Shown here: piece after piece, positions 1-22,456 of the stretch
How positions within the stretch are numbered: position 1 is the first letter of the stretch
How the letters are laid out: every line of letters starts with the position of its first letter
Assembly (NCBI GenBank): GCA_018664115.1
Contig: JABJOX010000013.1
Location: 1 to 44,101 of the forward strand
From: Candidatus Woesearchaeota archaeon
Lineage (GTDB): Archaea; Nanobdellota; Nanobdellia; Woesearchaeales; GW2011-AR9
DNA length: 44,101 nt
Direction: 5' to 3'
Position numbers and translations under genes: made by a program
Notes under the pieces: generated by a model
The model's database searches: none
Told to the model about the DNA's origin: nothing
Seen by the model: the letters and a program-made list of their open reading frames with translations, nothing else

Positions 1-1461
1 CAAACTATTGAATCGATAGAAATTCTTAAAGCCAATAAAGTTCCATTTATTATTGCTGCTAATAAAGTTGATTTGATTCACGGCTGGCAATATGATAAAA
101 GTAAATTACTGATGCAAAACATTAACAGTATGAACACGCAAATGCAAGGCGAATTTGAAAAAAAATTATACGAATTGGTAGGAACAGTTGCTGAACATGA
201 TTTGCAATCAGAACGATTCGATCGAGTAGAAGATTATACTAAACAAATTGCCATTGTTCCTGTTTCCGCACATACCGGCCAAGGAATTCCTGAACTGTTA
301 ATGGTCCTTACTGGATTAGCGCAAAAGTTCTTAGAAAAAAAATTAGAGATTGAAGAAACTGGCAATTGTAAAGGCACAATCTTGGAAGTTAAAGAAGAGA
401 AAGGAATGGGAACAACTTTGGATGCAATTATTTATAATGGCCAATTAAAAGTTAATGACACTTTAGTTATCGGTGGAATAGATCAAGCCATCGTTGTCAA
501 AGTGAGAGCATTATTAGAACCGGCAGAACTATCCGAAATGAGAGAAAAGAAAAGTAGCTTCAAAAACGTTAAACAAGTTACTGCCGCTACAGGTGTAAAA
601 ATTTCTGCTCCGGGGTTAAACGAAGCAATTTCTGGAATGCCAATTATCAGCTGTTCTGGTAAACCTGAAGAAGTAGAAAAATTAAAACAGGAAGTGCAAG
701 AAGAAGTTGGCACAATAGTAACTGAGTGCGATGAATGTGTTGGCGTAATGATTAAAGCTGATACTATCGGCGGATTAGAAGCATTAAGAAACCTATTACA
801 AGAAAAAAATATCCCCATCTCATCTGCTTCGTTAGGAGACTTAACAAAAAAAGATCTTTCTAAACTAGAATCATTAAAAGAAAAAGATGAATTTAGTGCT
901 ATAATTCTTGGATTTAACATTAAAGTATCTGAAGATTTAATAGAACTAACTAAAAGTAAAAAATTAAAAATAATTACTAATGATATTATTTACAAAATAA
1001 TTCAAGATTATGAAGAATATCTTGAAAAACTAAAAAAAGATATTGAAATGCGAAAATTATCAAAACTTGTTCGACCTTGTAAATTTGCAGTCCTTAAAGG
1101 CTATACCTTTAGACAAAGTAATCCAGCCATCATGGGTGTAGAAATAGAAATTGGCCAAATTAAAACTGGCGACCCAATTATGAATAAAGAAGGAAAGCAG
1201 ATTACTTCTGCTAAAAGTATGCAAGAAGGTAAAGATAATATCTCTTTAGCTGAACAAGGCAAACAATTAGCAATGTCTATGGATGGTGTTACCATAGGTA
1301 GACAAGTTGATGAAGGAGACTTTCTTTATACAGACATTCCTGAAGAAGATTTCAGAAAACTAAAAGAAATGAAGAAACATCTCTCTAAAATGGAAATAGA
1401 AGTTCTTAAAGAAGTTGCTGAAATAAAAAGAAAAAACAACCCCGTTTGGGGCGTTGGTTGA
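1..1461 (+). CDS. infB: Translation initiation factor aIF5B (IF-2 family GTPase), 5'-truncated by window start
   Basis: Frame is open from base 1 (QTIESIEILKANKVPFIIAANKVDLIHGW..., with the NKVD G4 motif of the GTPase). IF2/5B domains follow, ending in EIKRKNNPVWGVG*. Confidence 0.95.
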   Translation, partial: QTIESIEILKANKVPFIIAANKVDLIHGWQYDKSKLLMQNINSMNTQMQGEFEKKLYELVGTVAEHDLQSERFDRVEDYTKQIAIVPVSAHTGQGIPELLMVLTGLAQKFLEKKLEIEETGNCKGTILEVKEEKGMGTTLDAIIYNGQLKVNDTLVIGGIDQAIVVKVRALLEPAELSEMREKKSSFKNVKQVTAATGVKISAPGLNEAISGMPIISCSGKPEEVEKLKQEVQEEVGTIVTECDECVGVMIKADTIGGLEALRNLLQEKNIPISSASLGDLTKKDLSKLESLKEKDEFSAIILGFNIKVSEDLIELTKSKKLKIITNDIIYKIIQDYEEYLEKLKKDIEMRKLSKLVRPCKFAVLKGYTFRQSNPAIMGVEIEIGQIKTGDPIMNKEGKQITSAKSMQEGKDNISLAEQGKQLAMSMDGVTIGRQVDEGDFLYTDIPEEDFRKLKEMKKHLSKMEIEVLKEVAEIKRKNNPVWGVG

Positions 1462-1515
1462 ACTGAAAGAATTGAAGTTCAACTTTGTTTTGATCAAACT
1501 TTTGTTAAAAGTTTG
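1458..1515. repeat. Two consecutive inverted repeats (hairpins) after the aIF5B stop
   Basis: TTGAACT(1458-1464)...AGTTCAA(1476-1482), 7-bp stem; CAAACTTTT(1495-1503)-GTT-AAAAGTTTG(1507-1515), perfect 9-bp stem. Confidence 0.8.
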
Positions 1516-1517
1516 TA

Positions 1518-1550
1518 AGGAAACACAACCCAGTCTGGGGCGTTAGTTAA
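1518..1550 (+). pseudogene. Relic copy of the aIF5B 3' end (encodes RKHNPVWGVS*)
   Basis: 33-nt ungapped alignment with 1429-1461 (RKNNPVWGVG*), 27/33 identical; substitutions include synonymous AGA/AGG, CCC/CCA, GTT/GTC and TGA/TAA. Confidence 0.75.
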
Positions 1551-20430: not shown

Positions 20431-21117
20431 ATGAATAACGTTATGATTATTGGTACATCACATATTGCTAAACAAAGTGTGAATGAGATTAAAACCGCCG
20501 TTAGTGCCTGGAAACCAGACATTATTGCTGTAGAACTAGATTTACAACGGGCTGCTGCTTTGATGTCTGAAGAGAAAAGTAAAGTCACTTTAGCTATGAT
20601 TCTAAAAATTGGTATAAAAGGTTATTTGTTTGCTAAAGTTGGCCAGTTTGTACAACAAAAGTTAGGTAAAATGGTTGGTGTAAGTCCTGGAAGTGAAATG
20701 AAAGAAGCTTTGAATCTAGTTCGGAAGGAGAAATTAGAAGCAGCTTTTATTGACCAACCAATTCAAATCACGTTAAAAAATTTCTCTAAGTACTTAACCT
20801 GGAAAGAAAAATTTAGATTCTTCTGGGATATGGTAAAAGGTTTGATTACTCCTAAAAAACAAATGCGAGAAATGGGTTTAGATCAATTTGACTTAACTAA
20901 AGTTCCTGGGAAAGAAGTTGTTAAGAAATTAGTTAACCAAATGCGAAAAAGATATCCTAACGTTTATCGTGCTTTAGTATCTGATCGGAATAAGTATATG
21001 GTTCGCCAAATTGTAAAAATTCTCCGTAAAAACCCAGATAAAAAGATTCTTGTAGTTATCGGTGCTGGCCATGAAGAAGGGATGCGAGAACTGCTGTTGA
21101 AAGTCGATGTTGTTTAG
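20431..21117 (+). CDS. TraB/PrgY-family protein
   Basis: MIIGTSHIAKQSVNEIKTAVSAWKPDIIAVELDLQRAAAL and C-terminal KKILVVIGAGHEEGM. ATG 20431 preferred over TTG 20419; upstream TTTAAATA box. Confidence 0.9.
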   Translation: MNNVMIIGTSHIAKQSVNEIKTAVSAWKPDIIAVELDLQRAAALMSEEKSKVTLAMILKIGIKGYLFAKVGQFVQQKLGKMVGVSPGSEMKEALNLVRKEKLEAAFIDQPIQITLKNFSKYLTWKEKFRFFWDMVKGLITPKKQMREMGLDQFDLTKVPGKEVVKKLVNQMRKRYPNVYRALVSDRNKYMVRQIVKILRKNPDKKILVVIGAGHEEGMRELLLKVDVV

Positions 21118-21120
21118 AAA
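21017..21120 (+). repeat. Left copy of 104-bp direct repeat (3' end of the TraB-family gene)
   Basis: 97/104 identical, ungapped, to 22353-22456. Confidence 0.95.
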
Positions 21121-21123
21121 TTG

Positions 21124-22308
21124 TTAAGAACAAGGAACTTTAAACCCATGACTTGGCTTATTCGGAACTTGACATAATGTCTGTTTCATCATCTTTTCTG
21201 CTTTATAAAAAACATACTCCCTTTCATTACAACTTAAAATTTCATTCTGAGACATAGAAAATAAAAGATTAATCTCAGCACCATAAACACTTACCCAATC
21301 CCTATCCCCAATATGAGGAGGATTATCTTTTTCACAAATTATATGCCCCAATTTTTCATTATGAGATAATTCATCAAAGTTGTGATTTGCTTCATGATAT
21401 AATGTGGAGGCATAATCTATTTTTTCTTCAAGAGCGTTTTCATGTAACATTCTTACACAAACATAGATTGTACCTTGACCCAACTTATTCTTTGCAATAG
21501 GGCCTTCAAAAATTGTAGGAGAACATCCTATTTCTTCAAAATTTTCACCGTAACTTTCAGGTTGAGAACCATCATAATAAACAAGATTATTGTCTTTAAC
21601 AAAATCATAAGCGTTGACAAACTGATTTATTAGCATATTCTTAGGTTTGACATTACTAGTATATTTTAACACTGTAAGATATTTAATGAGATATTCAAAA
21701 TTATTCTTTTTTTCTCCAATAATTCCATTAAAACAGAAAGTTTCTACACCAAAGAACGATAATTTCTCACAAGAATTAGAAGAAAACTTATTCTGAATTC
21801 CTAAAAAATAATCAAAGCTACTTTGGTCCTTATAATGAACACTTAAAGAATTGCCCTTATCTAAAACTTTTTCTTCATCAATATTAGAGTAACCAAAATA
21901 TTCCAATAATCTATACAAATCCGTTCTACCTACAAAATTTTCTGCAATAAATAAACTTTCACAATCTGATTTTGAAGAAGTAAGCCAAACATTTTCATCA
22001 TTTATTTTTAAATAACATCCAATTTTAATACTTTCTAAAACCTTTTTTGCAATTTGTAATCTTCTGGTGGGATCAATCTTGTAAATTTTCGTATCCCTAT
22101 ATCTCTTTTTAAAAGAATAATAAGTTTCACCAACTAATGCTTCCGATTGGTTTGCTTCATTAATAACTAAAGTGAGTTCTTCAATAGTAAAATTTTCCAT
22201 CTCTGCTTCAATCTCTTCATCAGAATAATCCCCATTACAACCAACTAGAATTAAAAATAATAATGAAATTATAATTACACCTATCATCCTCATTATTATT
22301 TTCATCAT
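21124..22308 (-). CDS. Putative lipoprotein with HExxH metallopeptidase-like motif
   Basis: Signal/lipobox IIISLLFLILVGC; STLYHEANHNFDE; downstream GAEINLLF could supply a third ligand. TATA-like ttatatatat near 22325-22335 favours a start at ~22308 or ~22293 over 22338. Confidence 0.7.
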   Translation of the reverse strand: MMKIIMRMIGVIIISLLFLILVGCNGDYSDEEIEAEMENFTIEELTLVINEANQSEALVGETYYSFKKRYRDTKIYKIDPTRRLQIAKKVLESIKIGCYLKINDENVWLTSSKSDCESLFIAENFVGRTDLYRLLEYFGYSNIDEEKVLDKGNSLSVHYKDQSSFDYFLGIQNKFSSNSCEKLSFFGVETFCFNGIIGEKKNNFEYLIKYLTVLKYTSNVKPKNMLINQFVNAYDFVKDNNLVYYDGSQPESYGENFEEIGCSPTIFEGPIAKNKLGQGTIYVCVRMLHENALEEKIDYASTLYHEANHNFDELSHNEKLGHIICEKDNPPHIGDRDWVSVYGAEINLLFSMSQNEILSCNEREYVFYKAEKMMKQTLCQVPNKPSHGFKVPCS

Positions 22309-22352
22309 TCTTAATATTTCAAAGATATATATAAACATTTCTTTGAATCACT

Positions 22353-22456
22353 AAATTCTTCGTAAAAACCCAGATAAAAAGATTCTCGTTGTTATCGGTG
22401 CTGGCCATCAAGAAGGTATGCGAGAATTGCTGTTGAAGGTCGATGTTGTTTAGAAA
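22353..22456 (+). pseudogene. Orphan copy of the TraB-family gene 3' end (right direct repeat)
   Basis: Encodes ILRKNPDKKILVVIGAGHQEGMRELLLKVDVV*; 7 substitutions relative to 21017-21120, only one of them nonsynonymous (E to Q). Confidence 0.93.

Follow-up and report, generated by a model that had tools for sequence, protein, structure and literature searches.

Small noncoding mobile elements of prokaryotes are generally expected to depend on terminal repeats that a cognate transposase recognizes and to produce short target duplications of fixed length. The family described here, marked by a constant sequence that we call the handle, does neither, yet it occupies the essential genes aIF5B, AlaRS, SRP54, SecY, and L6. 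Among documented outcomes, the nearest is the fungal mitochondrial gene hybrid whose native C terminus is displaced, a hybrid created by mORF insertion in atp6 of Allomyces and in atp6, atp9, cox2, and nad3 of Glomus (PMC3630166). In the hybrids, as at our locus, the insert adds a second gene 3' end, the native end is displaced downstream, and the differences between the two ends are largely synonymous (PMC3630166). A displaced native tail together with a functional new tail was found at the end of the aIF5B gene in the stretch of archaeal DNA analyzed here (44,101 nucleotides; "the window"). The fungal mORF inserts encode a homing endonuclease, whereas the element has no ORF and may extend only 26 to 30 nt beyond the duplication. 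Our preferred reading, to which we give a probability of roughly two in three, is that the segment is the scar of a minimal nonautonomous mobile element which makes target duplications of 27 to 131 nt and is mobilized in trans by a putative recombinase.

The aIF5B tail and its echo

The first gene of the window was assigned to aIF5B on the basis of Pfam EF-Tu D4 and IF-2 domains, and its 3' codons, AAA AGA AAA AAC AAC CCC GTT TGG GGC GTT GGT TGA, end at 1461. A direct repeat of 35 nt, with 83% identity and 89-bp spacing, was detected at 1427-1461 and 1516-1550 when set in register with the end of the handle; the repeat search itself placed the pair at 1428-1462 and 1517-1551. The first-pass annotation had described an echo of the aIF5B tail behind the stop codon, and this echo is real, with the same layout being present in the independent congener G002. 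It had also stated correctly that codons of the NPVWGV core differ only synonymously; outside this core, the echo (TAAGGAAACACAACCCAGTCTGGGGCGTTAGTTAA at 1516-1550) carries N-to-H and G-to-S changes. The features of the locus, all on the + strand, are as follows.

1-1461, +, aIF5B gene, 5' end truncated at the contig edge (ORF, Pfam, repeat)
1427-1461, +, in-gene copy of the aIF5B tail, RKNNPVWGVG* (direct repeat)
1456-1484, +, hairpin A, arms 1456-1464 and 1476-1484, tip GA-AA-GAA-TT-GA (tandem GA) (RNA fold)
1489-1515, +, handle, TTTGATC plus hairpin B, the constant right end of the element (pattern recurrence, fold)
1516-1550, +, echo, the displaced native aIF5B end, RKHNPVWGVS* (repeat; empty site in G001; orthologous insertion in G002)
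1516-1521, +, N6 junction spacer TAAGGA (in recent insertions, this class of positions mismatches at 27%)
1522, +, position +7 of the junction, an A here (98 of 109 junctions have A or T, 72 of them A)
1551-1615, +, native intergenic DNA ahead of the next gene at 1616-2095 (aligns with G001 and G002)

Hairpin A overlaps the aIF5B stop codon (1459-1461). The handle, TTTGATC-CAAACTTTTgttAAAAGTTTG, sits immediately 5' of the echo, and its hairpin B has arms at 1495-1503 and 1507-1515 around a GTT loop. Hairpin A, a linker, and the handle make up the window element, which is shorter than the 120-nt version found elsewhere (fold z of -2.48 for 1452-1518). The echo runs uninterrupted into native downstream DNA. 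At the other end of the gene, the end of another contig of the source genome G000 (C59, 4357-5028) overlaps the start of the window aIF5B with 96% identity, reflecting either strain variation or an assembly break.

Comparison with two congeners

An empty site was observed in the congener G001, in which aIF5B passes straight into native downstream DNA that aligns with the sequence following the window echo. This empty site identifies the echo as the native end in displaced form and 1427-1515 as the unit that was added. The arrangement of the window was found again in the independent genome of G002 (L004/L052), which ruled out an assembly error, and a chance repeat was rejected on the basis of G002 and the controls. 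In G002, a tandem duplication of ~57 nt was present in the intergenic DNA 3' of the echo and was missing from G000.

The main rival to duplication at insertion is import of a donor tail, in which a nuclease would cut the native gene end and repair would copy a donor tail together with the element, so that the tail within the gene would come from outside and only the echo would belong to the recipient. Three observations at this locus favor such an import. Between G000 and G002, 9 of 36 positions of the in-gene tail differ, three times the divergence of the gene body (8.1%; P = 0.002); the echo differs at only 2 of 36; and hairpin A could not be aligned between the two genomes, as though a cassette had been exchanged.

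Distribution of the handle

Searching the source genome with the intergenic part of the segment identified a second site, on contig C18, where the motif TTTGATCAAACTTT..AAAGTTTG follows a gene assigned by Pfam to alanyl-tRNA synthetase and lies directly 5' of a synonymously differing copy of the AlaRS end (RIKAILE* and RIKAVLE*). Within the family, 12 of 49 genomes carried the motif, with sites at aIF5B, AlaRS, SRP54, SecY (with a repeat of 9 nt only), tRNA genes, and RNase P RNA. Across the order, probably Woesearchaeales, an exact-pattern search of metagenome-assembled genomes detected the handle in 55 of 353 genomes at ~140 sites, counts that are not fully independent because some sites reflect shared descent or tandem repeats; a reversed-pattern control gave no matches in the 353 genomes. 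The handle was also found in Methanosarcina and Methanobrevibacter (among them the cultured species Methanosarcina spelaei and Methanobrevibacter curvatus), in ANME-1, Thermococcus, and other DPANN, and in a number of bacterial groups, and there were two matches only among viral contigs (IMG/VR). Literature searches recovered two stretches of handle sequence, in unrelated papers only, and nothing relevant on Woesearchaeota intergenic repeats or archaeal miniature elements.

Several other contexts were noted. In bacterial loci (L065 to L183; Oscillospiraceae, Aminicenantes, and Cloacimonadota), a constant G+C-rich repeat follows the handle rather than a unique target. The constant sequence that follows the handle in Clostridia counts against our preferred reading. 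Methanosarcina carries tandem arrays of up to five copies of units composed of the handle and 30 to 90 nt (L098, L102, L138, and L068). A multicopy element of ~170 nt, in which the handle is followed by GGGGCAACCCC, was present in five families of the order (L265 to L272, L279, and L292), and handle-bearing multicopy leaders lie directly 5' of start codons in genomes G267 to G269 (L280 to L293).

Target duplications at handle sites

Target duplication was examined by aligning the 60 nt 3' of the handle with the 300 nt 5' of it at 125 distinct sites in the order, with a score of at least 40 being taken as a strong repeat. A strong direct repeat of the upstream gene end, starting at the handle, was detected at 42 of the 125 sites; windows placed 150 nt further on and mispaired sites both gave none. 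In 28 of these repeats, the start lay no more than 2 nt from the handle end; in the remainder, it came a few nucleotides later because their first nucleotides differ. Duplications were 27 to 131 nt long (median, 50), and the nonduplicated part was as short as 26 to 30 nt, little more than the handle. The element is a discrete unit with a fixed right junction and a duplicated target. The unrelated targets were many and included the ends of genes for AlaRS, SRP54, SecE (L132, with two elements in succession), ribosomal protein L6 (L244, where L6 overlaps the next gene), a YchF-like GTPase (L239), a PD-(D/E)XK protein, and tRNAs. The proposal of the first-pass annotation that insertion recurs at conserved gene 3' ends held for the handle class, given these 42 sites and the empty site in G001; its likeness to the traB echo, described below, was not supported.

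A tRNA (ARAGORN predictions) lay within 200 nt of 33 of 120 handle sites, compared with ~0.8% expected, and three predicted tRNAs contain the handle as an intron. At one tRNA gene (L057), the handle occupies an apparent intron, and, separately, the T arm is duplicated with a different short insert. Insertion into RNase P RNA occurred just 5' of GAGGAAAGTCC in two different families (L054 and L264). Against the preferred reading, about two-thirds of handle sites had no detectable copy; many of these lie at the starts of genes, within introns of tRNAs, or in leaders of the multicopy kind.

Comparison of copy and echo bears further on import from a donor. In protein genes, mismatches numbered 15, 6, and 64 at codon positions 1, 2, and 3, and the codon differences were mostly synonymous (54 versus 18 nonsynonymous, with those at L193 and L223 being purely synonymous), as import would predict; some copies may derive from a donor, since this distribution looks more coding than free noncoding drift. 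Against import, the copies were identical in many insertions (L238, L251, L260, L280, and L414), no nuclease ORF was found within or adjoining the elements, and a single element at dozens of unrelated genes is more than homing alone can account for. We regard import as an unlikely explanation and infer that the duplication was made by the insertion, as a long target site duplication, rather than brought in with the element. The inserts (26 to 160 nt) had no ORF at nearly all sites. A filler of 0 to 25 nt often lies between the copy and the 5' end of the element and is not expected from a clean target duplication. Both processes may act together, with insertion producing the duplication and recombination then spreading the element between lineages.

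Tandem duplication induced by the hairpin, in which slippage at the palindrome doubles target and handle and one handle is then lost, would draw on the tandem arrays of target plus handle that are known (L098, L187, L208, L102, and L138). It leaves unexplained the arrival of the handle at unrelated genes, the presence of a 120-nt family at many loci, and the preference for A or T at position +7, and aIF5B in G001 is an empty site free of the handle. Slippage is a very unlikely origin for the class.

The junction

The junction was analyzed in 28 low-divergence duplications for which the first 6 nt had not been used in the choice. The mismatch rate was 27% at positions 1 to 6, 1.8% at positions 7 to 12, and 2.6 to 2.7% beyond. 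Of 109 junctions, 72 had A and 26 had T at position +7 (90% A/T), irrespective of whether a copy was present. In 47 targets, no upstream position departed from background; only +7 did. The rule of six nucleotides followed by A or T was also obeyed by elements found with the structural model rather than the handle pattern: at L410, six foreign nucleotides precede 48 identical nucleotides beginning with A, and at L414, 27 nt are identical and +7 is A. At L410 and L430, both sides of hairpin B had changed together (GAAC/GTTC and TAAC/GTTA). No pairing between N6 and the linker was found.

Tyrosine recombinases of the Tn916 type have 6-bp coupling segments. The sharp mismatch zone of 6 nt and the A or T at +7 fit the 6- to 8-bp overlap of a tyrosine recombinase, a fit that is no proof. 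Such an enzyme with a 6-bp overlap would account for the sharp zone, and would not by itself account for the long duplication. In our reading, N6 would be a recombinase overlap or coupling segment.

The structured body

A structured body precedes the handle in some members. In family f19, the handle terminates an element of 113 to 123 nt with constant 5' and 3' ends, and an alignment of 25 sequences of this long element gave TTGCGCGAC as the 5' end and GAAAGTTTG as the 3' end. Compensatory changes were detected in 18 of 31 pairs of the f19 body, and doubly compensated cells numbered 126, compared with 38 ± 5.6 after shuffling and at most 24 when slid. A 120-nt covariance model recovered 58 copies, distributed over 14 of the 338 genomes and reaching up to 10 in a single genome. 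G-U pairs were very rare in the body, a hint that the hairpin forms in DNA and not in RNA, and Rfam covariance models (E ≤ 1) run over 15 loci detected tRNAs only. Hairpins with a GA tip were present at 18 of 125 handle sites, compared with 1.1 expected from shuffles; being enriched without being universal, hairpin A was not taken as defining.

These data bear on an RNA-guided element, in which body and handle would form the scaffold of a guide RNA, the echo would be the guide, and the mismatches in the first 6 nt would be escapes from self-cutting. A constant structured 3' end does directly abut the target-matching sequence, and the mismatches do cluster near that boundary. The sharp edge at 6 nt and the A or T at +7 nevertheless do not resemble a seed, G-U pairs are very few, no PAM or TAM motif was found upstream of the target, none of the 26 handle-bearing genomes tested had TnpB, and 3,360 window tests revealed no internal loop that could act as a guide by pairing with the target. 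We consider RNA guidance highly improbable.

Relationship to known elements and candidate enzymes

The element is short, noncoding, hairpin forming, and multicopy, as are MITEs and REP-like palindromes; unlike MITEs, it has no terminal inverted repeats in the 25-sequence alignment, and its duplications (27 to 131 nt) are not short and fixed. With SINE-like retroposons it shares a constant 3' end common to unrelated 5' bodies and target duplications of variable length, but its duplications are much longer and no reverse transcriptase tracks it. Regeneration of the gene end, displacement of the native end, and a 6-nt junction segment recall tyrosine-recombinase integrative elements such as Tn916, which differ in that our element carries no integrase gene, occurs as one type in unrelated genes, and has no conserved core site. 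Its structured right end abuts the target directly, like that of IS200/IS605 TnpB omega-RNA elements, yet there is no TnpB and no TAM, and the target is duplicated. Casposons, which use a Cas1-like integrase, duplicate 14 to 15 bp of target, far less than the element does.

Of the candidate enzymes examined (TnpB, Y1 transposase, and reverse transcriptase), none could be linked to the element. TnpB (PF07282) was rejected as a partner, being present in 0 of 26 handle-bearing and 3 of 14 handle-free genomes, and the presence of a Y1 transposase did not track the element. Reverse transcriptase (PF00078) was likewise rejected, with 9 of 26 handle-bearing and 4 of 14 handle-free genomes positive and none of G000 to G002; those found look DGR-like, as judged by eye.

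Proposed mechanism

In the mobile-element reading, the core would be a handle of 25 to 31 nt (TTTGATC plus hairpin B), which may be preceded by an optional 5' body, hairpin A in the window and the 120-nt structured body elsewhere. The machinery presumably acts in trans: a recombinase or transposase so supplied would join the 3' end of the handle at a point 6 nt short of an A or T in the target, cutting or exchanging strands 6 nt apart and leaving tens of target bases on both sides. The event would yield two target ends, one upstream that preserves the gene and a displaced native end following the handle, and insertions would persist where the upstream copy leaves the gene whole.

It is conceivable, with the odds somewhat against it, that the family represents a class of mobile DNA with a hairpin core of ~26 nt, joined 6 nt before A or T by a predicted enzyme, with tens of target bases duplicated. 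If so, such a class could insert at essential gene ends, at junctions where genes overlap, in introns of tRNAs, and in RNase P RNA while leaving them unbroken. The hosts belong to a DPANN order whose genomes are reduced and tightly packed, and the family offers an explanation of how insertions survive there. It is also a route to a predicted recombination enzyme, the search for which is made testable by the rule of handle, 6 nt, and A or T.

Tail echoes without the handle

The first-pass annotation had viewed the aIF5B echo as a smaller version of the traB echo in the same window. This parallel was not supported: the traB tail echo (21023-21117 and 22357-22454) flanks an insert of 1.24 kb (21118-22356) which has no handle and carries an antisense gene of 404 amino acids, lipoprotein-like and with no Pfam match. 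The handle element was rejected as the cause, and the traB echo probably arose otherwise than the handle class. On contig C49 of the source genome, the tails of a convergent gene pair both recur, back to back, at 56293 and 57415 (L359, L383 to L384, and L403), and the joined tails lie between two different gene cassettes; they are a fossil of reciprocal displacement.

Homology-facilitated illegitimate recombination, documented in bacteria (PMC5361080; PMC3240628), would let a donor enter by homology within the gene and join illegitimately, displacing the native tail. The traB echo and the reciprocal C49 echoes fit such one-sided homologous recombination (PMC5361080). For the handle class it is extremely unlikely, since in every case the end of the handle forms the right joint, so that joining is not random.

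A genome-wide scan for tail echoes, the check put forward in the first-pass annotation, covered 1,116,556 bases rebuilt from stretches and 1,149 gene ends and gave an excess (20 versus 0.5 expected at a score of at least 36), but gene heads gave nearly the same result (16 versus 0.8). In the score class of the aIF5B echo (at least 38), 22 echoes were observed, compared with 1.7 expected from shuffled pairings of tails and downstream regions, many of them being tandem paralogues. Most of these tail and head echoes come from tandem paralogues. Given this and the similar excess at heads, what is specific is the handle and not tails in general. On contig C40 of the source genome (26876-26943), the tail of elongation factor 1A is repeated without a handle, with 21 identical nucleotides and a gap of 25 nt. 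From the traB, C49, and elongation factor 1A echoes, all lacking the handle, it was concluded that there is more than one cause behind the tail fossils of the source genome.
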